From Rhizomicrobium sp. (GTDB taxonomy: Bacteria; Pseudomonadota; Alphaproteobacteria; Micropepsales; Micropepsaceae): a DNA stretch of 64,000 nt. The DNA lies in assembly GCA_037200385.1 (NCBI GenBank), contig JBBCGL010000001.1, positions 2,294,001 through 2,358,000 on the forward strand, in the 5' to 3' direction. The notes under the pieces are model-generated. The model was not told where the DNA came from, made no database searches, and worked only from the letters and a program-made list of their open reading frames with translations. Shown one piece after another: positions 8,426-33,591 of the stretch. The position numbers and the translations under genes were made by a program. Positions within the stretch are counted from its first letter, which is position 1; every line of letters starts with the position of its first letter.

Positions 8426-8667
8426 GTGCCCTCCCCTGGGGGTTCGACCCACAGCGCAACTGGCGGCTGACCGCCTATGACCCGGAGCACAACGGATCCT
8501 CCAGCGTTCAGCGCCGCGAGTTCTTCCGGCGTCGGCTCCCAAGCGCTCTCGCAGCCGTTTCCGACTATGCGCACCCAAAGATGCGCGCAGTTGCCATCCC
8601 GCTCTGGGTCCCAGCTGGCAGGAGCCCCCAGCCTGTTCGTCGCGCCGGTGATGCGTCTGCTGATCAC
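8422..8667 (-). CDS. Hypothetical phage protein
   Basis: 81 aa if it starts at the GTG at 8667, which overlaps the TGA of the upstream methyltransferase gene (GTGA) like the other junctions of this operon; an in-frame start at 8682 is also possible. No recognised domain. It ends in a proline-rich tail (IGGQPPVALWVEPPGE). Confidence 0.5.
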   Translation of the reverse strand: MISRRITGATNRLGAPASWDPERDGNCAHLWVRIVGNGCESAWEPTPEELAALNAGGSVVLRVIGGQPPVALWVEPPGEGT

Positions 8668-10565: not shown

Positions 10566-12535
10566 TCGCCGTCCTCCCGCCTCGTTCGGATCAGGAAGGC
10601 CGGGATTTCGAGCCGGTCCGCCTTCGGGCGCTGCTCGACCGCGGCGGGCTGCTCGACGAATTGCGGCGCCGGCGTGGGGTCGGTCTGCGTCGCCTTGAAC
10701 GCCGCGCCAACCCACAAACCGATGGGCTTGTCGGCGTCGGGCGGCACGAAGCGGTCACCATCCCAATGGCCGGCGCGCTCAGGGCACCGTTCTGCATAGA
10801 TGCTCTCGTCGCTGAACGTCGGGTGGTTCGGCTTCTTGAAGGTGTCGGGCCAGTGGCCGTCGGCATCAGCTTCCACGCCAGCCTTGAACGCGCCGCGCAG
10901 GTCGTAGTCGTCACCGCTGTCGGTCGGGGCGTGCTCAGCTTTCCACTCTTGGAACGCGAGTTCGTCCTCAGCCGACAGCAGCGTCTCGTAAGCCTCATCC
11001 GCCGCCGCCCTGCGCGTGGTGAACGCCTCCGCCTGCGCGAGCTCGCCGGCCGTCACGAAGGCCGCCGCGACGACATGCGTCTCGTCCACCTGGACCATGC
11101 CGCGGTCGTCCGTGATCGCGGCGACGCGCGCGGGACCGGGCATCAAGGAGCTGCGGCCGGGATTGGGCGCCGGCAGGTCCTCCAGGACCTCACCCGTCTC
11201 CGGATCGAAATAGGCCGTCCGGTCACCGTCAGGCGCGCCAAGATCGACGCCCATGACGACAGGCTCGGCTCCATCTGCTTTCGTCGAGCCGTCTTCTGGC
11301 GCCTCGTTGCCCCACACATCCCACCCGCGGCGGCCGACACGAGCGTTCAACTCGATACGCGGCATGTTGGGGAAGTGCTCTTCGACCCACTCGTGGACAT
11401 AGGCGGGCTTCGCCGAGTGCTTGCCGCGGTCCGCGTCGTCGAGCTTCGGCCGCGCCGCAAAGATCACGCTTTCGCCCTGCGTGCCCATCGATGGCGCCGG
11501 CACGTTGCCGCGCGTGCCGATCAGCAGGATCTCGTCGCGGTCCCGGTTCCAATAGCCGGTGCCCGCCGCGCCGACCTCGATGAACAAACGACCCGGACCG
11601 CCAAGGCCCGTCTTCGCCTGCTCCGGCGTCGGCGTGAACGGCACGATGTCCTTCACCCAGACGACGTAGGACTTGTAAGTGAACCCCCAGCTCTCCATCA
11701 CGCGGATGCCGCGCGCCAGGTCCGTGGTCCACAGCAGCAGAAGGCAGTCCTTCGCAGCGATCTTCTGCACGTCGCGTGCTGCGATCGTGCGCTCGTCGCT
11801 CGTCGGATAGTGGTTGTCCGCCGCCCGGTCCAAACCGGTCGCGCGGCTGAACACGACGAACTCCCACTCCGGATCAGCCAGAATGACGCCGTACTGCTTG
11901 TCCGGCAGCTCGCGCTGCTTCTTCCCCAGCGCCTTCTCTCGCGCCGTCCGCTCGGCGCGCTTGATGATGTTGCGAACGACGTTGGCCTTGCCGGCCTCCG
12001 CCTCCTTCGCGATATCGCGCTGCAGGTGCGCCGGCTGACGCGCCGCCTTCTGCGCCGCCGAGACTGCGATGAGACCGCGCTCGACGGCTTCAACTAGCTC
12101 CTCGGTGCCCGACCGCAGAACTTCCTTCGCACGCTCGATCGACGCCTTGCCGACGTTGAGCATCTGGGCTGCGGTCTCGGCCGAAACACCCTCAGTTGAG
12201 GGTGTTTCCGACGGACGGCCGGGCGCGATCTGCGCCATCCGGGCGCCCACCATGGAGAGCTGGCTTGGGTTCAGGTGGCGCCGATGGATGTTCTTCGAGA
12301 CGACGTAGGCCGTCGCCTCGGCATAGGTGCCTTCGAAGAGCGAGAACCGCACATCGACTCCGGCCACCTGCGACGCGCGATAGCGATTGCGGCCGTCCAG
12401 GATCAGGCCTTCGAACAAATCGACGTTCTCGTGCACGCCGTTTTTCTTGACGTCGGCAACCAGCCCATCGAAGTCCCCGCCCTCGATGAGCGGGAAAAGG
12501 TTTGCCAGCGGATGAAAGCCGATGGGTTCGCTCAT
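10562..12535 (-). CDS. ParB-N / MT-A70 fusion: adenine methyltransferase
   Basis: 657 aa with two parts. Residues ~5-100 are a ParB/Sulfiredoxin-like N-terminal domain (LILDGRNRYRASQVAG, KNIHRRHLNPSQLSMVG). Residues ~205-400 are an MT-A70 type methyltransferase with ADPEWEF (221-224), a variant of the usual DPPW motif, followed by RAADNHYPT, LLLWTT and WVKDIVPFT. The remaining ~250 residues are a variable acidic tail. Such fusions are common in alphaproteobacterial phages and probably methylate adenine in DNA. Whether DPEW is fully active cannot be told here. Overlaps both neighbours by ATGA. Confidence 0.85.
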   Translation of the reverse strand: MSEPIGFHPLANLFPLIEGGDFDGLVADVKKNGVHENVDLFEGLILDGRNRYRASQVAGVDVRFSLFEGTYAEATAYVVSKNIHRRHLNPSQLSMVGARMAQIAPGRPSETPSTEGVSAETAAQMLNVGKASIERAKEVLRSGTEELVEAVERGLIAVSAAQKAARQPAHLQRDIAKEAEAGKANVVRNIIKRAERTAREKALGKKQRELPDKQYGVILADPEWEFVVFSRATGLDRAADNHYPTSDERTIAARDVQKIAAKDCLLLLWTTDLARGIRVMESWGFTYKSYVVWVKDIVPFTPTPEQAKTGLGGPGRLFIEVGAAGTGYWNRDRDEILLIGTRGNVPAPSMGTQGESVIFAARPKLDDADRGKHSAKPAYVHEWVEEHFPNMPRIELNARVGRRGWDVWGNEAPEDGSTKADGAEPVVMGVDLGAPDGDRTAYFDPETGEVLEDLPAPNPGRSSLMPGPARVAAITDDRGMVQVDETHVVAAAFVTAGELAQAEAFTTRRAAADEAYETLLSAEDELAFQEWKAEHAPTDSGDDYDLRGAFKAGVEADADGHWPDTFKKPNHPTFSDESIYAERCPERAGHWDGDRFVPPDADKPIGLWVGAAFKATQTDPTPAPQFVEQPAAVEQRPKADRLEIPAFLIRTRREDGE

Positions 12536-13538: not shown

Positions 13539-13732
13539 CCGGCGCTCCCCATGCTCGGGGGCCGACGGACGAGCTGGAGGCACATCTCGGCCTCGCGCTC
13601 GACGTCTTTCACCTGGTCCAGCGCGTCGTCGCGCTGATCCACGCTGCCGCGCACGGCCATGTTCGCCTGATGGCGCACAGCCAGGCCGTGGCGTCTGGAC
13701 AGATGGCGGAACACTTCGAGCAGCGGGCTCAT
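13535..13732 (-). CDS. Small hypothetical phage protein
   Basis: 65 aa, basic N-terminus (HLSRRHGLAVRHQ) followed by a helix rich in charged residues (RDDALDQVKDVEREAEM). Not recognised. Supported by ATGA overlaps at both ends, in the middle of the methyltransferase block. Confidence 0.55.
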   Translation of the reverse strand: MSPLLEVFRHLSRRHGLAVRHQANMAVRGSVDQRDDALDQVKDVEREAEMCLQLVRRPPSMGSAG

Positions 13733-16320
13733 GCTGCCGCTCCATCGAGCGCGAGCAGGCCGTCCCATGGGCCGCGTTGCGGCGCGACCGACAGCGCGAT
13801 CGCGACGTTGCGAACCCATATCGGCTCCGCCGACAGCATGAACGTCTCGCCCGACCAGGCGAGCAGCAGCGTGCGCCCCATGACGCTCGCGATGGCCTGT
13901 GCGGACTTCGCCGGCACCGCGTTCCCGATGCGCTCGCGCCAGGCGGAATCCGAGAGCCCGTCGAGCTCCAAGAACTCTTCCGGGTCCACCAAGCTTTGGA
14001 GCGCTGCCAGCTCGAGCGTGGTCAGCGGGCGGTGCCATGTGCCGTCGAGAGCGCGGATGACGCAGACGAGCCGGTCATTCGCGGCCGGAAGCTTGATCGA
14101 GGATCCTGCCGGATCAAAGAGCGCCGCGGCGAAGTCGCGCGGGTCGGCAACGCTATTCCAGCCGTTGTTGTTCTTCGCGAAGCCGGGCACTGCATAGGCG
14201 GTCTGGGGCCAGCCCAGCACGCCATAATGTCCGCCAGTCCTGTAATGCTCGCGTCCGGCCTTGAACGCCTCCGGCCGCGGATCGGCGACGCTCATCGCGC
14301 CGCTGCCGACGCGGTCACTGCCGGTGACGGTCTTGCCGCTGTCGCCGAACGCGCCGACGAACATCTTGTTGGCGTGCGTGCCCTCGCCCCAGGGATAGCG
14401 GATGTCGGCGACCGCGAAGGCGCCATTACCGGTGGTGCTGGCGCCGATGACCGCGCCCGCAGCGCCGTCGAAGGACGTCACCTTGTACTTGGTCTGCTTG
14501 TAGTCCGGCCGGTCTGTCGGCCGCGGGTCGGCAACGGCCAGCCCGCCCACCGGACCGCCTCCGCCGGCGACGGCCGGGGTGTGCTGATCGAAGCGCACGA
14601 TGCGGTAGATGTTGTTGAAGGGCGTGCGGCCCAGGATGCGCGGGTCCGACACCGCGTTGATTCCGCCGCCGACGGCAGTCTGGCCGGTCACCGTGCCCGC
14701 AGGCTGATCCCATTCCCGCACCCCTAGCTGGACCGACTTCGGATGACCGTCCACGCGCGGGTCCGCGACGACGGACGCACCGTTCTCCCGACCCGATATG
14801 ACGGCGCGCGAGTGGTCATCGAACGGCGTCACATGCCATTTGCCGTGCAACTCATTGGCAGGCCGCATGGGGCGCGGATCGGCGACGATCGCGGCGCCGT
14901 TCTGGCGCCCGGAGATCACCGCGCGGGAGATTTCATCGAACCCTGTGACGCGCAGCACCCCGTTGAACATGCCGCCGTTAGCCGGCCTGGGGTCCGCTAC
15001 GCTGAACGCGCCATTCGTTGGCCAGGTCTCACCAGCCACCACACCGCTATGCACATCCCATGGCCGGACGCCGAGCCCGGCAGAGTGAAGGCCCGCACCC
15101 TCAATGCGCGGGTCCGCGACGGAGAATTTGCCCTGGAGGGGCGAACGCGCGCCGCTGATGACGCCGGAGCTTTCGCCCCAACTCATCACACCAGCCTGGT
15201 TCGAACTCCACAGGTCGAGCCTTGGATCGGCCACCGAGTAGCTGCCGTTCGAAGGCGCGGTCTTGCCCGCAACGACGCCGGTGTGCTGCTCCCACGCCTT
15301 GACGCCGAACGTGTCGGCACGATCGCGCTCAGCAATCCGGGGGTCAGCAACGCCCGTGGCGCCCGACGACGGCTGGAATTTCGACGTGACAGCATTGGCG
15401 TGATCGCCCCAATGCTTGACGTTGAAGGCTTCGTTGCGCAGGCCGTCGACCGCGATGCCGTAATCCGCGAGCTGGCCATCGCGCACGTTCAGCTTGTTCA
15501 GCGATCGCCAATCCGATCCCGCCTCCACGAAGGCCAACCGAACCCACGTCTTCCATTGCAGCGCAGGCATGCGGTGCATGGCGCCGCCGAGCGTGTTCCA
15601 CGGGCCCGGGAGCGGCAGCTTTTCGAGAACTGAACCGATGCCGTGCAGACGCTGCTTGGGCGGCTGATACAGATACGGCGGCACCTTGGCCTCATGACGC
15701 GCCACCAGCAGGAAGCGCTTGCGGCTCTGCGCCAGACCGCCCAGCTCGCCGCAATCGTGCGTCGTCTCGGCGACCGCGTATCCATAGCCGCGGAAGAGCG
15801 CGATGATCTGGTCGACCAGATGCCGCCCGCGCGTTGCGATGCGCGGCACGTTCTCGAAGATGAACAACTCGACAGGATCGTCCTTGTAGGCTTCGAGCGC
15901 GAGCCACACGCCGCGCAGGGTGAGGCCGTTCAACGCCTGGTACTTGGCTGTCTTGGACGTCGTCTCGGAGAGCAGTCCGGAGAAGCCCTTGCACGGGGCC
16001 GAGAGAAACACGATGTGCGGCCGCTCGTTGCCGAAGGCTCGCCGCACGTCGTCCGGCATGGCCGGCCGCCAGGATCGCGGTGGCTCCTTGCCATGGAAGG
16101 CGATGTATTGCTCGCGGCTGAATAGGTCGAGGCATGTCCCTCCGACGCCCGCCAGCTTGCGGAAGTCCCGCAGCGCGGCCGCGTCGGAGTCGATCCCGCC
16201 CAGGCAGCGAAACTTCGCCACCATGTTGCCGACGCGCGCCTCGCCGGCGTTGAAGCCCTTCGCGCCGCCGCCCAGGCCACAGAAGATGTGAGCGTGCCGG
16301 ATTTCGCGCCTGAGGATCAT
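13729..16320 (-). CDS. C5-cytosine DNA methyltransferase with an array of VADPR repeats
   Basis: 863 aa, about twice the usual length. The catalytic part is intact: FCGLGGGAKGFN (SAM binding), SAPCKGFSG with nucleophile Cys110, FIFENVPR (ENV at 156-158) and QSRKRFLLVA (~197-206). Residues ~300-727 are occupied by 11 imperfect repeats of about 40 residues, each with an aromatic-Asp/Trp segment, a VxSG/VxGx turn and an ending VADPR. After the array come the C-terminal C5-MTase motifs (LTTLELAALQSL, ERIGNAVPAKSAQ). The repeats sit where the target-recognition domain normally lies. Overlaps both neighbours. Confidence 0.9.
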   Translation of the reverse strand: MILRREIRHAHIFCGLGGGAKGFNAGEARVGNMVAKFRCLGGIDSDAAALRDFRKLAGVGGTCLDLFSREQYIAFHGKEPPRSWRPAMPDDVRRAFGNERPHIVFLSAPCKGFSGLLSETTSKTAKYQALNGLTLRGVWLALEAYKDDPVELFIFENVPRIATRGRHLVDQIIALFRGYGYAVAETTHDCGELGGLAQSRKRFLLVARHEAKVPPYLYQPPKQRLHGIGSVLEKLPLPGPWNTLGGAMHRMPALQWKTWVRLAFVEAGSDWRSLNKLNVRDGQLADYGIAVDGLRNEAFNVKHWGDHANAVTSKFQPSSGATGVADPRIAERDRADTFGVKAWEQHTGVVAGKTAPSNGSYSVADPRLDLWSSNQAGVMSWGESSGVISGARSPLQGKFSVADPRIEGAGLHSAGLGVRPWDVHSGVVAGETWPTNGAFSVADPRPANGGMFNGVLRVTGFDEISRAVISGRQNGAAIVADPRPMRPANELHGKWHVTPFDDHSRAVISGRENGASVVADPRVDGHPKSVQLGVREWDQPAGTVTGQTAVGGGINAVSDPRILGRTPFNNIYRIVRFDQHTPAVAGGGGPVGGLAVADPRPTDRPDYKQTKYKVTSFDGAAGAVIGASTTGNGAFAVADIRYPWGEGTHANKMFVGAFGDSGKTVTGSDRVGSGAMSVADPRPEAFKAGREHYRTGGHYGVLGWPQTAYAVPGFAKNNNGWNSVADPRDFAAALFDPAGSSIKLPAANDRLVCVIRALDGTWHRPLTTLELAALQSLVDPEEFLELDGLSDSAWRERIGNAVPAKSAQAIASVMGRTLLLAWSGETFMLSAEPIWVRNVAIALSVAPQRGPWDGLLALDGAAA

Positions 16321-17072
16321 TCCGCGTCACCCTGCCAAAGCGGATGCTCGAGCGGGGTACCGAAGGCCCAATTCCAGACGTCGGCGCCACCGGTCACGCC
16401 AGCGAGGTATTTGCCGTCAACCTTTTCGGGCCGCACGAATTTGGCGATAAAGTTGAAAACGCCCCGCGTCTCGCAACGCCACACAGCGCCCTCGACCTCA
16501 TCCCACGCGCCGTGGTGACCGGTCGGACCAAGAGCCGCCATAGCCGCATCGATGGGAAAGGCGTCGCCATCGGACAGCACGGCCGCAGAACGCAGATCAC
16601 ATTTGCCGAAAAGCGTTCGCGCCTCGTCATGCGGCCAGCGATCGGTCCCCGCCAGCACATCGAATGCGACGAAGAGATCACTCTCGGCCGCAATCAGGTA
16701 GCGGGTGCCGTGTGCCTGAGCGAGCCATTCGCCGGCGATGCGTGAGCCAGGCGGCAAAGCGGCGGCGATCTGGGCAGCGCGGTCTCTCACCCATGTGCCG
16801 AAGCGATGGTGCTGCAAATAGTGGGAATCAGCGGCGTGATAGCCCGCGCGCGTAATTGGCACGATAGTGCCGTCGATGTTCGCGATGGTGACGCAGGAGC
16901 CGTCAAGCTTCTCCGTCACGATGATCCGATCGTGCCGGTCGCGTTTCTTCTCGCACAAGATGGCCGCCTGCCCGGTGCCGATACTCCAATCACCCGACCC
17001 AAGGCGACTATTTGGCAAGTGCGGAATGCTGCCGTAGCCCTTGCGGCCAAGAGGTTTCGCTGGCTTGGTCAT
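16317..17072 (-). CDS. RNA ligase family protein
   Basis: 251 aa. It has nucleotidyltransferase motif I, TEKLDGSC, with the adenylated Lys55, then motif III/IIIa-like IAGEWLAQAHG and FVAFDVL, and motif IV/V-like EGAVWRC plus FIAKFVRPE. This order fits T4 Rnl2-like RNA ligases. Phage RNA ligases repair tRNAs cut by host anticodon nucleases, which agrees with the anti-restriction character of the surrounding genes. The substrate is not shown by the sequence. Confidence 0.85.
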   Translation of the reverse strand: MTKPAKPLGRKGYGSIPHLPNSRLGSGDWSIGTGQAAILCEKKRDRHDRIIVTEKLDGSCVTIANIDGTIVPITRAGYHAADSHYLQHHRFGTWVRDRAAQIAAALPPGSRIAGEWLAQAHGTRYLIAAESDLFVAFDVLAGTDRWPHDEARTLFGKCDLRSAAVLSDGDAFPIDAAMAALGPTGHHGAWDEVEGAVWRCETRGVFNFIAKFVRPEKVDGKYLAGVTGGADVWNWAFGTPLEHPLWQGDAE

Positions 17073-24229: not shown

Positions 24230-24536
24230 CATGCTTATCCGCTTGACACCCAAGGAGTCTAGATGATGGGCGATGGCGATCTCCGAATGCTCGGTGCGCG
24301 GGATGGTCTTGTTTCAGGCCTCTTAGCCGTGCGCGCCGAAATCCATGCGCGCGCGTACTATCCGATTGATCCGCGCTACACGCGAAAGATCGCGGCGCGA
24401 GAGGCTATTCTGCGACCGTTGCGTGACGTTGAGAAACGCATCGTTGAATCTCTCGACGCCGTGAAACTGGCCTATGAGAAATCCCTGCAACCGCACCCCA
24501 CGGCTAGCGGTCATGGGTGAGAAGCGGATAAGCATG
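24230..24536. mobile_element. 307-bp element with 15-bp terminal inverted repeats and 8-bp target duplication
   Basis: Left end CATGCTTATCCGCTT (24230-24244) and right end AAGCGGATAAGCATG (24522-24536) are perfect inverted repeats. The element is flanked by direct repeats CTATGAGG (24222-24229 and 24537-24544), the mark of a target duplication. Removing the element and one repeat restores an ATGA overlap between the gene ending at 24227 and the gene starting at 24539. It encodes one 85-aa protein and no transposase, so it would have to be moved in trans, like a MITE. Confidence 0.75.
24263..24520 (+). CDS. 85-residue passenger protein of the inserted element
   Basis: Begins MMGDGDLRMLGARDGLVSGL; helical and charged (RKIAAREAILRPLRDVEKRI, ESLDAVKLAYEKSL). 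AAGGAG sits 5 bases before the ATG. It lies wholly between the inverted repeats of the 307-bp element. No recognised domain; it is not a transposase by size or composition. It could be a toxin/antitoxin-like or structural cargo, but nothing shows this. Confidence 0.6.
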   Translation: MMGDGDLRMLGARDGLVSGLLAVRAEIHARAYYPIDPRYTRKIAAREAILRPLRDVEKRIVESLDAVKLAYEKSLQPHPTASGHG

Positions 24537-24538
24537 CT

Positions 24539-24823
24539 ATGAGGTATCGCTCGCATGCCGAACGGCAGCTCGCACGAAGCCGTACCGTCCTTGGCCGCGG
24601 TCGGCGGCAGCGCGAGCAGGACGGCCTGACATCGGCACAAATCCGGGCGCGCATCGTGACGGCCATCTGTGACGCCGACGACAAGGCACAAGCCCTGTCG
24701 CGAGACGCCCTGCTCCGCACCAACATCCCGCCATACGCGATCGACGAACATTTCGCTGCAGCGATGAAGGCGGCGGAAGAGATGCGGCCAGGCCTGGCGC
24801 AGCGCGCACGGAGCTTCGCATGA
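24539..24823 (+). CDS. Hypothetical phage protein
   Basis: 94 aa. A basic N-terminus (RYRSHAERQLARSRTVLGRG) is followed by helices (SAQIRARIVTAICDADDKAQ). Its ATG lies within the right copy of the CTATGAGG duplication. Overlaps the next gene by ATGA. Unknown role. Confidence 0.6.
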   Translation: MRYRSHAERQLARSRTVLGRGRRQREQDGLTSAQIRARIVTAICDADDKAQALSRDALLRTNIPPYAIDEHFAAAMKAAEEMRPGLAQRARSFA

Positions 24824-25317
24824 TCTGGACCCCTTCGAACCGCGGCCACACGCCGGCGCGCCTTCTCGCCGATCGGCACTACAGCCGGCAGAAGGTAGGC
24901 TCGCCGCAGTTCATGCCACCGGGGTCTTGCCGCGTGCTGGTCGCCGGCAATTCCAAGGCGGTGTTCGGACTCAGCTTCCCGAAGGCCGAGTACGTGAAGC
25001 ACGCCTGGCCGGGTGCCTGGATCGTCTCGATCTTCCGCAATGAGGACGCCGGTCCGCTGGCGTCGAAGATGATCCGCGACGCGCTGGCCGTGATGCAGAC
25101 CGAATACGGCTACGGCGCGCCGCCAGAGATCGGCTGCGTATCCTTCGTCGATCCGAAGAAGGTGCGCGGCGTTCATGAGCGCGGCGAGCTGGTCAAAGGC
25201 TTCTGCTTCAAGCGCGCGGGCTTCCGCGCCGTCGGCGAGACCAAGAAGGGTCTGATCGCCTGGCAGCTACTGCCGCTTGAGATGCCGGCGCCCAGATCTA
25301 TGCCGGAGTCCGCATGA
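24820..25317 (+). CDS. GNAT-like phage protein (possibly Mom-related)
   Basis: 165 aa. The order TPARLLADRHYSRQKVGSP, then VFGLSFPKAEYVKHAWPGAW (beta strand plus turn), then EIGCVSFVDPKKVRG and CFKRAGFRAVGETKKGLI resembles acyltransferase-fold phage proteins, including the Mu Mom group that modifies adenines. Motifs are too diverged to be sure. Cytoplasmic. If Mom-like, it would add to the DNA modification genes of this prophage; otherwise it is an unknown acetyltransferase-fold protein. Confidence 0.5.
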   Translation: MIWTPSNRGHTPARLLADRHYSRQKVGSPQFMPPGSCRVLVAGNSKAVFGLSFPKAEYVKHAWPGAWIVSIFRNEDAGPLASKMIRDALAVMQTEYGYGAPPEIGCVSFVDPKKVRGVHERGELVKGFCFKRAGFRAVGETKKGLIAWQLLPLEMPAPRSMPESA

Positions 25318-25652
25318 CGGATCGTCTGTCAATCAAGAACCTCGACGCCCCAACCTTGCAGCGGTTGCACGACGCGCTGCTGAACCAGGGACTTCTCATC
25401 GAGGCCGGCTGGGTTTCGTTGCGCATCGCAGCGATACCGCCAGACGCGCCGGAGGTACAGCTCGAAGAAATGCGCAATGCGTTCTTCGCCGGCGCCAAGC
25501 ACCTGTTCTCGTCGATTATGATCGTGCTGGACCCCGGCTCAGAAGAGCCTACCGCGGCCGATATGGCGCGCATGGACAAGATCCAGCGCGAGCTCGACGC
25601 ATACATCCAAACCTTCGCGCTTCGCCGCCTTCCGACCGAGGGCTGCGCATGA
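25314..25652 (+). CDS. Conserved phage hypothetical protein
   Basis: 112 aa. It matches a recurrent small phage protein pattern: LLIEAGWVSLRIAAIPPDAP, then MRNAFFAGAKHLFSSIMIVL and a DxEEPTAADMARMDKIQREL end. Commonly found in alphaproteobacterial phages, function unknown. Overlaps both neighbours by ATGA. Confidence 0.65.
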   Translation: MTDRLSIKNLDAPTLQRLHDALLNQGLLIEAGWVSLRIAAIPPDAPEVQLEEMRNAFFAGAKHLFSSIMIVLDPGSEEPTAADMARMDKIQRELDAYIQTFALRRLPTEGCA

Positions 25653-25810
25653 CCCGGCTCTGGCTCAAAGACGCCATCGCCGGCGCGATGCTCGCGGTCT
25701 TCCTGACCGGCTGCGCATGCCTGCCGCTGATCGCGCCTTACGGCATCGCCGATCTCACCAATCACCCCGGCCTTAGCGGCCATCATCACCAACGGAGCAT
25801 CGAACCATGA
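25649..25810 (+). CDS. 53-residue lipoprotein coupled to the first DGR target
   Basis: Begins MTRLWLKDAIAGAMLAVFLT with a lipobox LTGC (Cys23), so it should be lipidated at the cell membrane; the mature part is only about 30 residues and ends with a His-rich stretch (GHHHQ). Its TGA overlaps the ATG of the first variable protein. It may be a spanin-like or anchoring factor. The coupling hints at joint action with the DGR target, but this is not proven. Confidence 0.6.
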   Translation: MTRLWLKDAIAGAMLAVFLTGCACLPLIAPYGIADLTNHPGLSGHHHQRSIEP

Positions 25811-26712
25811 ACGCAAGTGTGAAATTGGAAGCCTCTGCGGCGGCGCTGATCAGACCGGACGCGACTGCGTCCGCCTTCAAGGTGATTGGCCGCAACAACC
25901 TCGTCGTCAAGGCCGGAACGGTTTTCGCCGGGCACACCTTCGCCGAGGACATCGACGTCAAGCCTGACCTCGATCCCGGCTATATTCCGGGCGCCGACTA
26001 TATCGTCAGGTTCGACGGCGCCGATCTGTCTGTTTCCCGCCCGACCGGTATCCCGGAAGGCGAGACCCTGCTCGGCGGCTTCCATTACGCGCCAGGCGGC
26101 AATGCGCCATCGCGAAGCGGCGGCGACGACGTGCCCGCGATCAATCCCTACTCCCTGTGGGACGTTGGTTTCCGCCCCGCCTGCCCCGACCCCCGCGGCA
26201 TGACGCTGGTCGAGGCGCCCGGTGGCTGCTTCTGGTGCGACATCTACCTGACTGGCACAAATCATCTCGCCGATGGCACGAGCAAGTTCGGCGCGACTAT
26301 CGCCGATGGCACCGACCTGCCACGCGATTCCAATGGAAGCCCGGTGCGGCGGTTCGACTACGAGGCCGCGAAGGCCGCGATGGCGGCGCATGGCAAGGGG
26401 CTGCTCGGCGTCGATGAGTTCTTCGCTGCGGCGTTCGGCGTCACCGAGAAGACTGCTGCGCCGCGCGATCCTGTCACGACCGGTCTCGACGCGCTGCGGA
26501 CCAGCCGTTTCGGCTTGATGCAAGCGACGGGCAATATGTGGGCCTGGGGTCACGACGCCGACCCCGACATGCCGCGTCCTTCGTTCTTCGGCGGTTCCTG
26601 GCTCAACGACGAGGACGCGGGCTCGCGCTGCGCGGACCTCGGCGCCTGGCCGGACGACTCGGTCGTCAACATCGGCGCGCGCGGGCGCAGTGACCACCTG
26701 CAGCTTGGATAG
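25807..26712 (+). CDS. DGR target protein 1 (C-type-lectin/FGE-like variable protein)
   Basis: 301 aa, no signal peptide. The N-terminal ~90 residues are a beta-rich display part (NNLVVKAGTVFAG, GYIPGADYIVRF). Residues ~95-301 have a formylglycine-generating-enzyme-like C-type lectin fold: GGFHYAPGG, PRGMTLV, TSRFGLMQATGNMWAWG, FFGGSWLND, ending in GARGRSDHLQLG. The last ~45 residues are encoded by variable repeat 1 (26571-26694). Together these features resemble the Bordetella phage Mtd type of ligand-binding protein. It would display a diversified binding surface. Translationally coupled to the lipoprotein before it. Confidence 0.9.
   Translation: MNASVKLEASAAALIRPDATASAFKVIGRNNLVVKAGTVFAGHTFAEDIDVKPDLDPGYIPGADYIVRFDGADLSVSRPTGIPEGETLLGGFHYAPGGNAPSRSGGDDVPAINPYSLWDVGFRPACPDPRGMTLVEAPGGCFWCDIYLTGTNHLADGTSKFGATIADGTDLPRDSNGSPVRRFDYEAAKAAMAAHGKGLLGVDEFFAAAFGVTEKTAAPRDPVTTGLDALRTSRFGLMQATGNMWAWGHDADPDMPRPSFFGGSWLNDEDAGSRCADLGAWPDDSVVNIGARGRSDHLQLG
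26571..26694 (+). repeat. DGR variable repeat 1 (VR1)
   Basis: 124 bp, aligned without gaps to the template repeat at 28084-28207. There are 11 differences and every one is at a template A (replaced by G, T or C); the C, G and T positions are unchanged. The last 27 bases (ATCGGC to TGAC) are identical, the expected initiation-of-mutagenic-homing segment, and the match to the template stops after TGAC. Confidence 0.95.
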
Positions 26713-26731
26713 AAGCCGCGACAGCGGCTTC
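26712..26731 (+). repeat. Hairpin after VR1 (GAAGCCGC-GACA-GCGGCTTC)
   Basis: Perfect 8-bp stem with GACA loop, starting in the stop codon of target protein 1 and 17 bases after the end of VR1. Bordetella phage BPP-1 needs a hairpin/cruciform of this stem length with a 4-nt loop just after its variable repeat for efficient homing. The template lacks it, which fits its role as a mark of the target. Confidence 0.85.
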
Positions 26732-26754
26732 CTCAAACTCTCAACAGGGAAATC

Positions 26755-27672
26755 ATGACCATGAAAAGCCGGATCACAAAGAAGAAGCCAGGCGCGCCGA
26801 AGGCGACACTCGTCAAGCGCGACAAGACGAGCCCTGCGATCAAGGTCGCTGGTCTCGGCGCGGCGGTTTGCGCGGGCGTCACGTTTCGTGGGGTGACCTT
26901 CAAGAAGCCCACGCCCATCAAGGCACCAATAGGCGGCTACGTGGCGGGTTGCGATTACGTCGTGACGATAACGCGCGGCAAGCCCGCGGCACTGCCGATG
27001 GCGTCGGACAGCATTCCGGCGAACGCGATCGGTGGCTTTCACTTCGCCCCTGGCGGCAATGCGTTTGGCATCACCGGCGGTGACAGCACGCCGGCAATCA
27101 ATCCGTATTCGGCCTGGGACCGGAATTTTCGTCCCGCATGCGCCGATCCGCGCGGCATGACGCTGGTGGACGTACCGAGCGAGGGCCGTATCTGGTTCGA
27201 CATCTATCTGCTCGGCAAGGACCATCTCGAGAGCGGCACGAGCCGGCATGGCGCGACGATCGCCGACGGCACCGATCTGCCGCAGAACCCGGCCGGTGGT
27301 TATTTCCCGCGCTTCGACTACGAGGCGGCATGCGCGGTGATGAAACACCACGGCAAGCAGCTGCTCGGCGCCGAAGAGTTTTTCGCCGCAGCGTATGGCG
27401 TCACCGAAAAAACCGCTGCGCCGACGGAGCCGAAAACCACGGGTCTTGATGCGCAACGAACGAGCCGGTGGGGCTTGATGCAGGCGACCGGCAACATGTG
27501 GGTGTGGGGCACAGACGGTCATCCCACCGTGCCGCGTCCTTCGATCTTCGGCGGTTCCTGGCTCGTCGGCGTGCCCGCGGGCTCGCGCTACGCGTCCCTC
27601 GACTACTGGCCGGCCGGCTCGAGCGGCGGCATCGGCGCGCGCGGGCGCAGTGACCACCTGCAGCTTGGATAG
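26755..27672 (+). CDS. DGR target protein 2 (C-type-lectin/FGE-like variable protein)
   Basis: 305 aa, clearly a paralogue of target protein 1: same lectin core (GGFHFAPGGN, PRGMTLVDVPS, TSRWGLMQATGNMWVWG, IFGGSWLVG) and the same 3' end, but a different N-terminal ~75 residues (basic start, GVTFRGVTFKKPTPIK). So the binding domain is shared while the attachment part differs. The C-terminal residues are encoded by VR2. Two targets for one template would let the phage diversify two binding proteins. No signal peptide. CAGGGA precedes the ATG. Confidence 0.9.
   Translation: MTMKSRITKKKPGAPKATLVKRDKTSPAIKVAGLGAAVCAGVTFRGVTFKKPTPIKAPIGGYVAGCDYVVTITRGKPAALPMASDSIPANAIGGFHFAPGGNAFGITGGDSTPAINPYSAWDRNFRPACADPRGMTLVDVPSEGRIWFDIYLLGKDHLESGTSRHGATIADGTDLPQNPAGGYFPRFDYEAACAVMKHHGKQLLGAEEFFAAAYGVTEKTAAPTEPKTTGLDAQRTSRWGLMQATGNMWVWGTDGHPTVPRPSIFGGSWLVGVPAGSRYASLDYWPAGSSGGIGARGRSDHLQLG
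27531..27654 (+). repeat. DGR variable repeat 2 (VR2)
   Basis: 124 bp, gap-free alignment to the template. There are 16 differences, all at template adenines (G, T and C replacements), leaving all other positions intact. VR1 and VR2 differ from each other at many of the same codons, so they were diversified separately. Confidence 0.95.
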
Positions 27673-27691
27673 CCGACGCGACAGCGGCGGC
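27672..27691 (+). repeat. Hairpin after VR2 (GCCGACGC-GACA-GCGGCGGC)
   Basis: 8-bp stem with one A-G mismatch and the same GACA loop as the VR1 hairpin, in the same position relative to the stop codon. Stem bases differ from those of VR1 while pairing and loop are kept, which argues for a structural function. Confidence 0.8.
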
Positions 27692-27707
27692 ACGAGGTTA
27701 TCGCGCG

Positions 27708-28079
27708 ATGATCACCAGGGATGAAAATACCAGCACCGATGCCCTGGCAATCGTCGAGAAGTATGAGGCGTTTGTGAAATATACCTACCCGATCGTTCAG
27801 CGAAGCCCAAAGCATCACGGCGTCCTGCGGGACGCCGTGATTGCGGAAATGTTCGTCACGGTCGGCGATCTCTATCACGCGGCAAAGTCGCGGCAGCTCT
27901 CTCGGCTCTATCAGGTCGATGCGCGCTTCGCGACGCTGCGTTCCTATCTGCGCTTCCTCGCCAGCCACGAGATCCGCGTCCTCACGCCCAAGAACCATGC
28001 TCATGCCTTGAGCCTGCTCTCGGAGCCGGGGCGCATGCTCGGCGCCTGGCAAAAGAAGCTCAGAGGGCAGAAGGGGTAA
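27708..28079 (+). CDS. avd: DGR accessory protein Avd-like (four-helix bundle)
   Basis: 123 aa, basic and all-helical, as expected for Avd: ALAIVEKYEAFVKYTYPIVQ, VLRDAVIAEMFVTVGDLYHA, ATLRSYLRFLASHEIRVL, LLSEPGRMLGAWQKKLRG. Avd forms a pentamer that binds the reverse transcriptase and the template RNA and is required for mutagenic cDNA synthesis. Its stop lies 4 bases before the template repeat, the usual order avd-TR-RT. Confidence 0.88.
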   Translation: MITRDENTSTDALAIVEKYEAFVKYTYPIVQRSPKHHGVLRDAVIAEMFVTVGDLYHAAKSRQLSRLYQVDARFATLRSYLRFLASHEIRVLTPKNHAHALSLLSEPGRMLGAWQKKLRGQKG

Positions 28080-28083
28080 GCAT

Positions 28084-28207
28084 GCCGCGTCCTTCGATCT
28101 TCGGCGGTTCCTGGCTCAACGACGAGAACGCGGGCTCGCGCTACGCGAACCTCGACAACTGGCCGGACAACTCGAACGACAACATCGGCGCGCGCGGGCG
28201 CAGTGAC
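28084..28207 (+). ncRNA. DGR template repeat (TR) and start of the DGR RNA
   Basis: 124 bp template for VR1 and VR2. It contains 24 adenines, many in AAC and GAC codon positions that in the targets become solvent-exposed variable residues. The RNA probably continues into the non-coding, GC-rich stretch 28208-28394, which would serve as the spacer from which the reverse transcriptase primes in BPP-1-type DGRs. The open frame running through TR is not considered a gene. Confidence 0.93.
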
Positions 28208-28394
28208 GACCGGAATTCGACGCGGCGGCGATCACGGTCCCGCCGGTCTTCCACGACCGCACATAAGCGGGTTCGGTGGTCAGCCCGTCTGTCCTGCTTC
28301 GGCGAACACACTCCACGGTCCGGCAGAGCGGGGCGTAGCGGGGCAACCCGTCGAGACCCGCGGCCGGCTTTCTTTTCGCAAAGGAACATCAGAC

Positions 28395-28769
28395 ATGAAG
28401 CATGAACCGAACTGCCCTGCAGAGCACGACGCGCTCCACGCGGACTGTTCCTGTGGGCCCAAAAACCTGCGCACGATCAACCTCGGCACCGGCCGATTTA
28501 TTATCAATCATGGGTACTATGGTGAGCAGGCCGCGCTCTTCATCGAGCAAGCGCCGGCCCCCGGGAAACCGGGAGCTGACGCATCGGGTAGTGGCCTGCC
28601 GCCCAACCGAGTCGTGGACGGTGGCACGATCATCACCTTCGAGAACATCGCTTGTGCCGAAGCTCTCGCCGCCGAACTGCAATCGGCAATCGCGCGCATC
28701 GGGTCGCGTCGCGGTTCGGGTCACATCGATGATGACGGATCGGTATTCACCCGCAAGTACAACGAATAG
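28395..28769 (+). CDS. Hypothetical protein between TR and reverse transcriptase
   Basis: 124 aa. Cys-rich N-terminus (CPAEHDALHADCSCGPKN) followed by strands (GRFIINHGYYGEQAALFIEQ) and a late helix (CAEALAAELQSAIARIG). AAAGGAAC precedes the ATG. An additional gene between template and RT is unusual for compact DGRs. Not a known HRDC-type DGR accessory. Function unknown. Confidence 0.6.
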   Translation: MKHEPNCPAEHDALHADCSCGPKNLRTINLGTGRFIINHGYYGEQAALFIEQAPAPGKPGADASGSGLPPNRVVDGGTIITFENIACAEALAAELQSAIARIGSRRGSGHIDDDGSVFTRKYNE

Positions 28770-28785
28770 AAACGGAGACGATGAC

Positions 28786-29787
28786 ATGACCAGGCGATTC
28801 CGTAACTTGATCGGCCAGATCGTCTCGCAGGCAAACTTGGCCGAGGCGTATCGTCTTACCTGCGCCGGCAAGCGGCAGACGTCCGCCTACCTGGAGTTCA
28901 AGGAATACGCACCGCTCAACCTGGCTGAACTCGCTGGCAATATGGCCGAGGGGAGCTACGTCGCCGGCGACCCCTATGAATTCTATGTGTTCGATCCGAA
29001 GAAGCGACTGATCTCGGCGCTGCCGTTTCGCGATCGTGTCGCGCAGCAGGCACTCTGTCTCGTCATCGGGCCGATCTTCGAAGCTGCGCTCTTGCCCCGG
29101 ACCTTCGCCTGTCGTCCCGGTAAGGGCGTGCATGCCGGTGTTGTGCAATTGCAAAGCGAGATGCGCCATCTGACGCGCGGCGGCGCACCGCTCTATTTCC
29201 TCAAGACCGATTTTCGCGGCTATTTCGCGTCGATCGACCGCGCGATCCTGTGGCGGCTGATCGAAGCGAGGATTTCCTGCCGCGCGACGTTGCGGCTTAT
29301 CGAGGCGATGGCCCCTCGCGCTGGCGTTGGCTTGCCGATCGGCAGCCTGACATCGCAGATCTTCGCCAACCTATACCTGGGCGCGACGCTCGACCGTCAC
29401 CTGCAGCAGACGCTCGGCGAGGACACCTGGTATCGCTACATGGACGATATCGTTGTGCTCGGCGCGGATCCCGATCATCTGCGAAGCCTTAAGACATCGA
29501 TCGAAACTTACGCGCGCGACCAGCTCGGCCTTGCCTTCTCGAAATGGGGCATCGCCAGCATCGCGCGCGGGGTCAATTTCCTCGGCTATCGGATCTGGAC
29601 CACGCACAAGCTGCTGCGCAAGACCAGCGTCACACGGGCAAGGCACAAGCTCAAGGCCTATCGCGCACGCGGCGAAACGGAGCGGCTGCGGAAGTTCACG
29701 GCCGCATGGCTGGGCCATGCGCGCTGGGCCGACAGCGCCAATCTGATCCAGAGCTTAGGACTGCAACAGCCGGAGAGGCGTCAATGA
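28786..29787 (+). CDS. DGR reverse transcriptase
   Basis: 333 aa, normal for DGR RTs (no RNase H or maturase domain). Motifs in order: FLKTDFRGYF (residues ~138-147), the DGR-type GLPIGSLTSQ in place of QGxxxSP (182-191), the catalytic YMDD (218-221) and the thumb motif NFLGYRIW. It copies the TR RNA, misincorporating opposite adenines, and the cDNA replaces a VR. GGAG lies 8 bases upstream of the ATG at 28786. Its TGA overlaps the next gene. Confidence 0.97.
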   Translation: MTRRFRNLIGQIVSQANLAEAYRLTCAGKRQTSAYLEFKEYAPLNLAELAGNMAEGSYVAGDPYEFYVFDPKKRLISALPFRDRVAQQALCLVIGPIFEAALLPRTFACRPGKGVHAGVVQLQSEMRHLTRGGAPLYFLKTDFRGYFASIDRAILWRLIEARISCRATLRLIEAMAPRAGVGLPIGSLTSQIFANLYLGATLDRHLQQTLGEDTWYRYMDDIVVLGADPDHLRSLKTSIETYARDQLGLAFSKWGIASIARGVNFLGYRIWTTHKLLRKTSVTRARHKLKAYRARGETERLRKFTAAWLGHARWADSANLIQSLGLQQPERRQ

Positions 29788-29984
29788 CCACCGAACGCCG
29801 GGCCGCGCGCGAAGACGCGCTCAAGGAACACATCCAGTCGATGCCGGCCAACCTGCTGCGCGAATACTTGGTCGAGTTCGTCGATGGCGCGTCCGACATA
29901 ACCCGCGAGACGATGATCGTCACGCTGCACGCGCAGAACCATATGCCGCCAATTGAACGAAACGAAGGAGACCATCATGGCTGA
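29784..29984 (+). CDS. Small hypothetical protein following the RT
   Basis: 66 aa, helical (ARREDALKEHIQSMPANLLR, EYLVEFVDGASDITRETMI). Its ATG overlaps the RT stop, so it is made with the RT, and it may be a small regulatory or accessory protein; no known family. Confidence 0.55.
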   Translation: MTTERRAAREDALKEHIQSMPANLLREYLVEFVDGASDITRETMIVTLHAQNHMPPIERNEGDHHG

Positions 29985-30396
29985 TGTTTGTGCTGCCGGT
30001 GTACCCATCGGGTCCGGCCCCTGCCCGGTATGTGACGCGACCGAGGACAACGACTGCGGAGGTATGACGCCGGCGGCGCAAGAACTCGCTCGCCAGACCG
30101 ACAAGATCCGCGAGCACTTCTCGATTCTGCAGGATGGGCCCGCCCGCTATGTTTTGGCCGACAACCGTAGCGACGACCCTTGCCCCGTCTATGTGACGCT
30201 TTGCGGCGCGATGGCGGCTCTTGAGACTCGTCTTGCGGAAGAGGTCAACGCGTGTGGTCAAATTCTCGCCGACGCGTCAAAGCCCGCCTCGGGCGGAAAG
30301 CCGCTCCCGCGCGAGGAGGCGGTCCGGCGTATGGATGATCTGCGCAAGGTGATGGAAGGCGCGTACGACCTCCGCAGCGTCGAAGGCGAAGGATAA
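29977..30396 (+). CDS. Hypothetical phage protein
   Basis: 139 aa. N-terminal CPVCDATEDNDCGG may bind metal; the rest is helical (AAQELARQTDKIREHFSIL) with a Lys/Arg-rich end. GGAGACC precedes the ATG at 29977. Unrecognised. Confidence 0.55.
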   Translation: MADVCAAGVPIGSGPCPVCDATEDNDCGGMTPAAQELARQTDKIREHFSILQDGPARYVLADNRSDDPCPVYVTLCGAMAALETRLAEEVNACGQILADASKPASGGKPLPREEAVRRMDDLRKVMEGAYDLRSVEGEG

Positions 30397-30401
30397 TCAC
30401 C

Positions 30402-31331
30402 ATGACCATCCCCATCCACGAAGGGCCCGCTATGACCCCAACAGACGAAGTGGTGACGATTCTTCGGCCGTTCCTGCGCGAACTCGTTGACCATGTTTGG
30501 AACGTTGCCAACGAAGACGAGTCCGTGCCCGCGACGGATTGGGCAGACCGCATGATCGATGAGGTTGTGCGAATCTGCCCCCTTCCGCTAGAGGCCATCA
30601 CCGCCGCCTCTCTCCCTGGCGGGGAGGAGTTCAACCGAACGCTTCGTTGCTTGATCTGTCACGAGGGGGTCTCCTGGCACTGTGATAAATGCGGCACGCG
30701 AGCCGTCAACGAGGACGAATTGCTTGCCACGCTTCAGGCGGAATACCGTCGCCCCACCGCAGCGGGGATAGTGCCGGATGCATCGTTTCTGCTGGATCGC
30801 CTCGCCCACTTCGAGGGCAACAAAGATTTGAGCGACCACGACATGCGGGAGTGGAACGGGCATATCACTCCAGCAATCGCAAGGCTCAGGAGCGCAATCG
30901 CCGCCGCTCCCTCCCCCGTCGCACCGACGACACAGGTGGGCGTGGATGCTTTGCTTGATGCGGCACGCGCGGAGGAACGGAAGCGCCTGGCAAAGCTTCT
31001 TGAAGAGCGGGCATCACAATTGCCCGGGGGCATCGAGCGGGCTGGTTTCTTCCTCTCCGCCATCACGGTACGCCGCGGGCGCCTGCTGACTAACGCCGAG
31101 CAGATCGCAAACCTTAGAGCGGCCATTAGCGACGAGCCCGCGCCACATCCAGCACCTGGATATCTGGAGGCGGAAGACGATCCGACGCCGTTTCCTGGCC
31201 ATGACGTCACCTTTCCGGGTGAAGATTTCCCTGACGACGGCTTGGGCCTTGGCTGCTCAATCTGCAACATGCGTGGCGCTGCTTTAAGCCGCCCGTGCAA
31301 GCCCGCCCTCTCCCGCGCTGAGGAGGCGTGA
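30402..31331 (+). CDS. Hypothetical phage protein with zinc-ribbon-like segments
   Basis: 309 aa. A CLICHEGVSWHCDKCG segment (residues ~77-92) and a C-terminal CSICNMRGA look like single zinc knuckles; between them are helical stretches (ARAEERKRLAKLLEERASQL). This build, mixed and variable, is typical of Ead/Ea22-like phage early proteins. The first ATG is used; the ATG at 30432 is also possible. Confidence 0.5.
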   Translation: MTIPIHEGPAMTPTDEVVTILRPFLRELVDHVWNVANEDESVPATDWADRMIDEVVRICPLPLEAITAASLPGGEEFNRTLRCLICHEGVSWHCDKCGTRAVNEDELLATLQAEYRRPTAAGIVPDASFLLDRLAHFEGNKDLSDHDMREWNGHITPAIARLRSAIAAAPSPVAPTTQVGVDALLDAARAEERKRLAKLLEERASQLPGGIERAGFFLSAITVRRGRLLTNAEQIANLRAAISDEPAPHPAPGYLEAEDDPTPFPGHDVTFPGEDFPDDGLGLGCSICNMRGAALSRPCKPALSRAEEA

Positions 31332-31945: not shown

Positions 31946-32253
31946 CGCCCACCAACCAGGATCAAGAGCTCGTGTTGCCATCTCCGGCCGTCGCGCCCCG
32001 CATCATGCTCTCCGAGGTCATCGCGATCGCGCGGGTGTCACGGGTCACCATCCAGCGCCGCGTCATAGCGGGAAAGTTTCCTAACGCAATCGACCGCGGC
32101 CGGGAGATGATCTTCGAGCGACGCGCCGTCTACGAACACCTTGGAATCCGAACAGAGGGTGCCGACAATGTGGGTGCGGAAAACCCCTGGGAGCGCGGCG
32201 CGCATGCCATCGCTGAGCGTCGAGCTGCCGGCCTACGTCATCACGAAGGATAG
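31942..32253 (+). CDS. xis: AlpA-like excisionase / MerR-type HTH
   Basis: 103 aa. Residues ~22-70 form an AlpA/Xis winged HTH: MLSEVIAIARVSRVTIQRRV followed by FPNAIDRGREMIFERRAVYE. It lies immediately upstream of, and overlaps, the integrase gene, the usual place for a recombination directionality factor that tips integrase toward excision. The ATG at 31942 overlaps the upstream stop. Confidence 0.78.
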   Translation: MTPTNQDQELVLPSPAVAPRIMLSEVIAIARVSRVTIQRRVIAGKFPNAIDRGREMIFERRAVYEHLGIRTEGADNVGAENPWERGAHAIAERRAAGLRHHEG

Positions 32254-33364
32254 GAAGGCGGGCACCGTCTTCTACTTCCAGGTCCCCAAGCGCCAGCGTC
32301 CGCTGGGGTGGCCGGGCACCCATAGGCTGCCGCTCGAACATTCGAAACGCACCGGCCTGGGCGACGCCGCCGAGCTCGCGGCCGTGACCGCCGACGCCGC
32401 CAGTCTCTATCGGCGGATGCAAGCCGAACTCTCGGGCGAGCCGGAAAAGGCGCGCCTCCATACGCTGCCATGGCTGGTCAAATCGTTTGAGAAGCACCTC
32501 GAGACGAAGCCTCGCAAGGGCAAGCGCAAAGGCATCGCGAAGTCGACGGCGCGCCAGTACGCATGGGCCGCGCGCCAGCTCATCGAGTGGTCGAAGGAAT
32601 CGGGCCATCCACATGTCCGCGCGATCACGCGCCCTGCCGTGCTGCAATTTCTCGACACGATGATGGACAAACCGACGAAGCGGCTGCACGTCGCTGGATA
32701 TCTCCGCCAGCTGATGTTCCATGCGATGGACAAAGGCGTGCGCCTGGACAACCCGGCGATCAAACTCGGCCTGGAGACGCCCGACGCGCACGTCCACATT
32801 TGGACGGGCGAAGAGACGGAGACCATGATTGCCGCGGCGGACGAGATGGGGATCGAGGGCATCGCCACGGCCATCGCGATCGCGCACGATGAAGGCCCAC
32901 GGCCGGGCGACATTCGCAAGTTCATGCGGCCACGGGACTACACACCCAACGAAGGCGCGTTCCGCTACTTCCAGAACAAGACCAACGGCTGGGTGGTCAG
33001 CCCGGCCGGCCAGCGCGTGTTTGAGCGACTGCGCCAGCAGCCCCATACCCAGCTGATGCTGGTCATCAACCATCGCACGAGCAAGAAGTACAACGAGCGC
33101 GTCTTTGCGCGCGACTTCGACCGGGTGCGCGAGAAGACCGGCTTCGTCCACCTGCAGTTCCGCCATCTCCGGCATACGTTCTGCGTCAACGGCAAGCGCG
33201 CCGGGCTCGATGAATTTGAGATCGCGTCGAAGACCGGCCACTCGTCCAAGTCGGTGCGCGACATGCTCGCCCAGCACTACCTGCCCCATGACAGCGTCGT
33301 GGCGACCAAGGCCACGGCGAAGCTGGAGGACTATCGGCGGAAGCTGTCCGGCGCGGCCGGGTAG
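32204..33364 (+). CDS. int: Tyrosine integrase
   Basis: 386 aa. The N-terminal SAM-like DNA-binding part (KSTARQYAWAARQLIEWSKE) is followed by the catalytic domain with all active-site residues: Arg233 (DEGPRPGD), Lys259 (FQNKTNG), His321 and Arg323 (RHLRHTF), His346 (KTGHSSKS) and Tyr359 (AQHYLPH). It catalyses site-specific integration and excision. The gene end is 153 bp from a tRNA-Gln gene. Start ATG 32204 (GGGAG upstream) is preferred; 32168 is a second choice. Overlaps the excisionase gene in another frame. Confidence 0.92.
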   Translation: MPSLSVELPAYVITKDRKAGTVFYFQVPKRQRPLGWPGTHRLPLEHSKRTGLGDAAELAAVTADAASLYRRMQAELSGEPEKARLHTLPWLVKSFEKHLETKPRKGKRKGIAKSTARQYAWAARQLIEWSKESGHPHVRAITRPAVLQFLDTMMDKPTKRLHVAGYLRQLMFHAMDKGVRLDNPAIKLGLETPDAHVHIWTGEETETMIAAADEMGIEGIATAIAIAHDEGPRPGDIRKFMRPRDYTPNEGAFRYFQNKTNGWVVSPAGQRVFERLRQQPHTQLMLVINHRTSKKYNERVFARDFDRVREKTGFVHLQFRHLRHTFCVNGKRAGLDEFEIASKTGHSSKSVRDMLAQHYLPHDSVVATKATAKLEDYRRKLSGAAG

Positions 33365-33517: not shown

Positions 33518-33591
33518 TGGGGGATCGTCTAACGGTAGGACTGCAGACTCTGACTCTGCCTGTCTAGGTTCGAATCCTAGTCCCCCAGCCA
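33518..33591 (+). tRNA. tRNA-Gln (anticodon CTG), CCA encoded
   Basis: Full cloverleaf: acceptor TGGGGGA paired with TCCCCCA, D arm GTCTAACGGTAGGAC, anticodon stem GCAGA/TCTGC with loop CTCTGAC (CTG reads CAG, Gln), T arm CTAGG-TTCGAAT-CCTAG, discriminator G and encoded CCA. It lies 153 bp downstream of the integrase and is the likely attachment site. The phage lies on its 5' side, so the phage would supply the 5' part of the gene after integration, less usual than 3'-end use. Confidence 0.93.

Follow-up and report, generated by a model that had tools for sequence, protein, structure and literature searches.

Can a single template rewrite two different target genes of one phage, and has it done so recently? 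This question is raised by a stretch of 64,000 nucleotides from Rhizomicrobium sp. (assembly GCA_037200385.1, contig JBBCGL010000001.1, positions 2,294,001 to 2,358,000), which we call the window and whose positions we count from its first letter. A preliminary description, made from the letters alone, had reported a prophage diversity-generating retroelement (DGR) in the window, with one template repeat (TR), two variable repeats (VR1 and VR2), an Avd-like gene before the TR and a reverse transcriptase (RT) after it. We analysed this locus together with its prophage and its relatives. We are confident that a DGR of the type known from Bordetella phage BPP-1, serving two targets and residing in a 64-kb prophage, is the best explanation of the locus.

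The evidence that carries this conclusion is the pattern of differences between the template and its two copies. The TR comprises 124 bases, 24 of which are A and 100 are other letters. In ungapped alignment, VR1 differs from the TR at 11 positions (seven A>G, three A>T and one A>C) and VR2 at 16 positions (eight A>G, four A>T and four A>C). All 27 differences fall on a template A and none on the 100 non-A positions; the hypergeometric chance of such an A-only pattern is 1.5e-9 for VR1 and 1.4e-14 for VR2. The coordinates, counts and restriction to A given in the preliminary description were thus correct on recount. When the ends were set by a repeat finder that penalises non-A mismatches, the likeness extended three bases further 5' in both VRs, resulting in 127 bases with 25 A and in 11 and 17 differences, all at A. 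The same finder, which keeps repeat pairs if at least 75% of their differences are at A, was used to scan related loci; 343 of 646 A sites and 13 of 2728 other sites differ in 14 two-target loci pooled, which is biased by the A filter and is not an unbiased test. The TR/VR counts of the window and the comparison of VRs among relatives (see below) are independent of this filter. Searching the 5.0-Mb chromosome with the template returned three matches, namely the TR, VR1 and VR2, and a search with the first target, T1, found only T1, the second target T2 and the TR. We therefore rejected a further VR elsewhere in the chromosome. The RT likewise has a single match in the chromosome, with no second related RT.

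The two VRs have been rewritten independently, as the preliminary description had proposed: six template As are changed in both VRs, and at five of these six the letters differ. When VR1 and VR2 are compared directly, they differ at 20 of the 24 A sites and agree at all 100 others. Of the template As, ten are at first, 14 at second and none at third codon positions, and they are distributed over 17 codons (seven AAC, five GAC, two ATC, and GAG, TAC and AGT), in none of which can a change of A create a stop codon. The theoretical protein repertoire from the TR is about 1.8e14.

The cassette lies entirely on the + strand, in the order T1, T2, avd, TR, spacer RNA, an extra open reading frame (ORF) and RT (Table 1). 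The Avd-like gene and the DGR-type RT, whose translation carries GLPIGSLTSQ and YMDD, are borne out by the profile searches; the spacer RNA and the 124-codon ORF, which lie between the TR and the RT, had been omitted from the preliminary description. A-only TR/VR differences and an RT of the DGR clade beside the TR place the locus among the DGRs. In addition, a bAvd gene directly before the TR, a structured spacer RNA after it, hairpins with a GRNA loop after the VRs and an Mtd-kind target with a terminal VR place it in the BPP-1 type. Cassette order, homology to Brt and Mtd, and the surrounding prophage genes thus agree with the earlier reading of a BPP-1-like prophage DGR with two targets.

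Table 1. Features of the DGR cassette and the right-hand end of the prophage, in window coordinates.
Feature	Position	Strand	Evidence and remarks
T1, Mtd-like, 301 aa, VR at 3' end	25807..26712	+	phrog_11262 (tail protein) E 5.7e-76; Pfam mtd_2nd E 1.1e-6; solved Mtd structures, best E 4.8e-51
VR1	26571..26694	+	differs from TR at 11 template As and nowhere else
Hairpin 3' of VR1	26712..26731	+	perfect 8-bp stem, GACA loop
T2, Mtd-like, 305 aa	26755..27672	+	phrog_11262 E 3.7e-73; Pfam mtd_2nd below its cut-off, E 7.4e-4; 57.5% amino acid identity to T1 outside VR
VR2	27531..27654	+	differs from TR at 16 template As and nowhere else
Hairpin 3' of VR2	27672..27691	+	8-bp stem with one mismatch (7/8 pairs), GACA loop
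avd, accessory variability determinant, 123 aa	27708..28079	+	PF22296 bAvd E 2.6e-26; phrog_3206 'Avd protein of DGR' E 1.8e-28
Template repeat (TR)	28084..28207	+	24 A, none at codon position 3
DGR spacer RNA	28220..28368	+	Rfam RF03022 Phage_DGR, 67.5 bits (gathering 50), model positions 1-127 of 127
Extra ORF, 124 aa	28395..28769	+	lies downstream of the spacer RNA and before the RT; searches gave no relatives
DGR reverse transcriptase, 333 aa	28786..29787	+	53.9% identity to BPP-1 Brt over 96%; RVT_1 E 6.5e-17; phrog_1423 E 1.9e-106; PDB 8ub7 E 2.8e-108
Tyrosine integrase	32141..33364	+	PF00589 E 1.8e-6; phrog_1 E 5.4e-20
Right attachment core	33518..33539	+	identical to the 5'-terminal 22 bases of the tRNA-Gln gene (33518-33591); the left copy lies beyond the window, at chromosome 2263482-2263503

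The two targets have a common end, GCGCGCGGGCGCAGTGAC. Downstream of each VR the likeness to the template ceases, and both genes read CACCTGCAGCTTGGATAG, followed by the GACA-loop hairpin. In BPP-1, a hairpin with a four-base GRNA loop is required for efficient homing, and disruption of its stem lowers tropism switching more than 1000-fold (Guo et al., PMC3240598; this and the other papers are cited here from parts of their text). The GACA loops of the window fit the GRNA rule of that study, and a GRNA loop was found in 82 of 95 VR rows of the loci scanned, a count that includes duplicate contigs and comes from a simple search that misses some imperfect stems. By analogy with the BPP-1 experiments, a transcript of avd, TR and spacer would be copied into cDNA by a complex of Avd and RT, with random bases placed opposite template A. 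The cDNA would then replace the matching 3' end of either target gene, with homing guided by the common end of the targets and the hairpin that follows each VR. Being overwritten again and again from a single template would keep the variable patches alike except at A sites, while the target bodies diverge. We also considered a consistent hairpin rule for first and second targets. The weaker stem belongs to the second target in the window, L006, L011 and L015, to the first in L023 and to neither in L007 and L013; we therefore claim no such rule.

We then asked the relatives whether the VRs turn over, a check that the preliminary description had named. The two phages nearest by RT identity, L005 (IMGVR_UViG_3300028666_000282, 91.9%) and L006 (IMGVR_UViG_3300036823_000389, 89.5%), are uncultured and carry the same two-target cassette. 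All 24 As are shared by the three templates; at the 100 non-A positions, L005 differs from the window twice and L006 once. The VRs, compared where ungapped matches reached at least 62%, behave differently: VR2 differs from the proximal VR of L005 at 16 of 24 A sites and four of 100 others, and from the proximal VR of L006 at 18 and two, whereas VR1 differs from the distal VR of L006 at 12 and two. The first VR of L005, which has indels, thus did not enter this comparison. Since orthologous VRs differ at A sites while the template As are unchanged, recent activity at both targets is well supported by these sequences. Substitutions at non-A positions as frequent as at A, a pattern that the preliminary description had named as refuting its reading, are found neither between the TR and its VRs nor among the VRs of relatives.

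A further sign of rewriting is position 28091, which is C in the TR and both VRs of the window and G in all three copies of L006. A change that reached the template and both targets together points to rewriting, whichever letter is older. The equivalent position is G in both VRs of L054 and in the VR of L052, and the C of the window may be the newer letter. In L054, moreover, the two VRs agree at every non-A site, although the gene bodies are 61.2% identical.

The targets themselves are old partners. Outside the VR, the identity between T1 and T2 is only 61.9% at the DNA level and 57.5% at the protein level. In a tree of 52 rows they fall into separate groups (support 94 and 99), and L005 and L006 have a copy in each; the tree was inferred with a quick method with SH-aLRT (approximate likelihood-ratio) support only, and 20 of its 48 inner branches are below 80. 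The pair is thus probably older than the split of the window phage, L005 and L006, and we rejected a recent duplication of T1 and T2 on the basis of the separate groups. In L054 the second gene is of the T2 kind, but the first falls outside the T1 kind, a sign that targets may be exchangeable. The ratio of nonsynonymous to synonymous substitution rates (dN/dS) of the bodies is 0.32 for T1 compared to L006, 0.20 for T2 compared to L006 and 0.14 for T2 compared to L005, which indicates that both target genes have been kept. With values of 0.17 and 0.11 for RT and 0.09 for Avd, dN/dS shows purifying selection between relatives on RT, Avd and target bodies. Residues 12-250 of T1 align to residues 55-312 of Mtd (E 4.8e-51). 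T1 and T2 are probably receptor-binding tail proteins; we infer both their location in the tail and their binding of a receptor.

The cassette resides in a prophage inserted at the 5' end of tRNA-Gln and flanked by a 22-bp attachment repeat; no tRNA was found at the left attachment stretch of the chromosome. We searched for the empty site in 60 genomes of the genus, its own genome included. In 41 relatives the left flank and the tRNA end were matched; the two matches lie on one contig and strand in 35 of these, and within 1.5 kb in 29 of the 35. From the two attachment copies and the empty site in relatives, we estimate the prophage at about 64.0 kb, of which the window contains the right-hand 33.5 kb. 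Its genes include those for terminase ATPase, portal, protease, major head protein, tape measure, J-like tail protein, DnaB-like helicase, repressor and integrase. With defined ends, an integrase, a repressor and packaging, head and tail genes, it has what an intact temperate phage is expected to have, and judged by its gene content it is apparently intact. The structural genes lie on the - strand and the DGR cassette on the + strand; the targets and the tail genes thus do not share a transcript.

Several findings nevertheless weigh against this reading, or against parts of it. The stem after VR2 has a mismatch, which counts in view of the BPP-1 stem data, yet VR2 has more changes than VR1. 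No sigma-70-like promoter was found in a scan of 24500-30500. The structure prediction for T1 (mean pLDDT, the predicted local confidence, 53.9) was too poor to confirm a C-type lectin fold. The first approximately 45 residues of Mtd are missing from both T1 and T2, where the alignment has a gap; we take this part to be the beta-prism domain of Mtd. In the first VR of L005, two 3-base deletions keep the frame, and the two letters that distinguish the L005 template from that of the window are absent, whereas its second VR has both. Because of the deletions and the absence of both letters, the first target of L005 looks as if it has not been fully rewritten lately. Finally, the preliminary description had called the DGR 'active or recently active', and only the latter part is well supported by the VRs of relatives; present activity is what we infer from the sequences.

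This last point is where a DGR that was silenced recently would fit. Such an element would have the same anatomy and history, with VRs that are frozen products, and it conflicts with an active two-target DGR only on present activity. The mismatched VR2 stem is in its favour, as is the observation that three of the prophage DGRs in PMC11792537 gave no signal in reads. On the other hand, no part of the cassette (RT, avd, TR, spacer RNA, targets, hairpins) is missing or interrupted, the absence of any non-A difference between the TR and its VRs leaves little time for drift, and RT and Avd have been under purifying selection between relatives. We thus regard recent silencing as rather unlikely, though to be taken seriously.

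The remaining alternatives concern the origin of the pattern. If the DGR rewrote one target only, ordinary gene conversion between VR1 and VR2 could have made the other alike; the genes are side by side, their VRs share every non-A letter, and the first VR of L005 seems not to have been rewritten recently. Gene conversion would, however, carry the states of the A sites along too, whereas these differ between VR1 and VR2 at most sites and, where both are changed, carry different letters at five of six. Furthermore, each VR on its own differs from the TR at A only. Ordinary gene conversion alone is therefore ruled out by the A-site differences, and we consider a one-target DGR helped by conversion very improbable. 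As for three old repeats that came to differ at A by chance or after duplication, nothing beyond the repeats themselves speaks for them. The hypergeometric chances given above rule out such luck, and the complete set of DGR genes together with the RNA argues against it as well, so that its probability is negligible. The two-target DGR of the BPP-1 type accounts for the A-only differences of both VRs, the A-site differences between them and their turnover among relatives.

How unusual is it that a phage DGR has two targets? We found 37 loci by their RT and tabulated 34, leaving out L033-L035, in which the RT is only a fragment. Sixteen loci form a close set, in which the RT is at least 65% identical and is preceded by 3.2 kb or more of DNA; the near copies L036 and L037 are both counted. 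Two Mtd-like targets, with two A-biased VRs, were found in six of the 16 (L006, L007, L011, L013, L015 and L023), and in one of nine more distant loci with as much upstream DNA (L028). Among nine loci dropped for short upstream DNA, L005 and L024 (a near copy of L023) also show two targets. Two-target DGRs are common in this group. In the literature, DGRs with several VRs make up about one in seven in the early DiGReF survey (PMC3521204), and about 13% of DGRs have two targets as cited in PMC10743442, which also describes phage DGRs with two unlike targets; text searches of PMC8144416 gave no counts of multi-target DGRs. The preliminary description thus overstated the case in calling two-target phage DGRs uncommon. 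Close relatives of the RT were absent from the genomes of 60 relatives, nine of which have matches at 28-37% identity (best E 2e-11), and from 288 other genomes of the class at E 1e-60, a sample that overlaps the former. One contig, IMGVR_UViG_3300047994_000425 (L018, L148 and L150), encodes an Mtd-like protein next to its RT and another several kb away, with both strands used. Two records under the name Escherichia phage T7, LR745707.1 and LR745708.1, contain an Mtd-like part in tail fibre gene 17 and are possibly engineered phages.

The extra ORF marks a second point at which close relatives differ. It has no Pfam or PHROG family at E 0.01 and no match in phage records at E 0.01 or in viral_contigs. 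The distance from the end of the TR to the start of the RT is 579 bases in the window and 505 in L005; the other 26 of the 27 relatives in which a TR was detected have 145-316. At the same spot, L005 and L004, an overlapping copy of it, carry a different ORF of 102 codons (L005 2234-2542), whereas in L006 spacer RNA and RT are separated by just 187 bases, which leaves no room for an ORF. Apart from the sharing between L004 and L005, neither small ORF has a relative among the loci compared; the searches of phage records and viral_contigs covered the ORF of the window only. A tentative picture, which we put forward as a possibility with the odds against it, joins these observations: one template may keep two long-separated receptor-binding paralogues paired, so that a single phage explores two repertoires (for two receptors or in mixed trimers) with homing tuned by different hairpins, while the junction of spacer RNA and RT may be a site where small unrelated genes, which may modulate the system, are swapped among close relatives.

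Other parts of the prophage include several modification genes. On the - strand, a C5 cytosine DNA methyltransferase of 863 aa (13729-16320; PF00145, phrog_116) has 11 tandem repeats in its middle, which recur every 38-46 residues, each closing with VADPR or a similar sequence, and are possibly several target-recognition units. At 10562-12535 (-), a ParB-like part and a methyltransferase part of the MT-A70 type are combined in one protein, and a Dam-like gene at 8664-9410 brings the prophage methyltransferases to at least three. An RNA ligase family protein (PF09414) is encoded at 16317-17072 (-). Left of the window, beyond the J-like tail gene, a 1023-aa protein (L134 16521-19640, -) combines an N-terminus like that of phage head decoration proteins with a C-terminal GDSL lipase domain and is a candidate tail spike.

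The locus is a clean example of one template with two diverged, rewritten targets, in an apparently intact prophage of a complete chromosome and with close relatives at hand. The pairing of two targets is real but already known; knowledge of DGRs is unchanged by it and the novelty is modest. What is added here is the contrast between conserved template As and turnover of both VRs, the age of the target pair, the ends of the prophage, and the swapped small gene by the spacer RNA.

Among known systems, BPP-1 (AY029185.2: mtd, bbp7 in place of avd, TR, brt) has its target, avd, TR and RT arranged as in the window, all on one strand, with a VR at the end of the target, an RT 53.9% and a target 37.8% identical, and a TR-RT spacer that is alignable in its core. 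It differs from BPP-1 in having two targets instead of one, in target proteins that lack the N-terminal stretch of Mtd, in the extra ORF between spacer RNA and RT, and in the placing of the tail module (tape measure, J-like protein), which lies apart from the cassette and on the opposite strand. Prophages that carry two variable regions are known from Faecalibacterium; one of them, Lagaffe_CP, has two Mtd-like targets and a hypermutation signal at both VRs in aligned relatives (PMC11792537). By description, not by sequence, its DGR resembles that of the window as one prophage DGR with two Mtd-like targets, in another phage and host. The multi-VR DGRs of the DiGReF survey, explained there by gene duplication and continued independent diversification, share with the window paralogous targets, A-only changes and independent diversification. 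Unlike the DGR of the window, most of them come from bacterial genomes; phage genomes yielded few DGRs in that survey, which was unable to test for an association with prophages (PMC3521204). Most similar are L005 and L006, which have the same two-target cassette and identical template As, and which differ from the window in the letters of their VRs and in the interval between spacer RNA and RT, where a different ORF, a gap and the 124-aa ORF are found, respectively.

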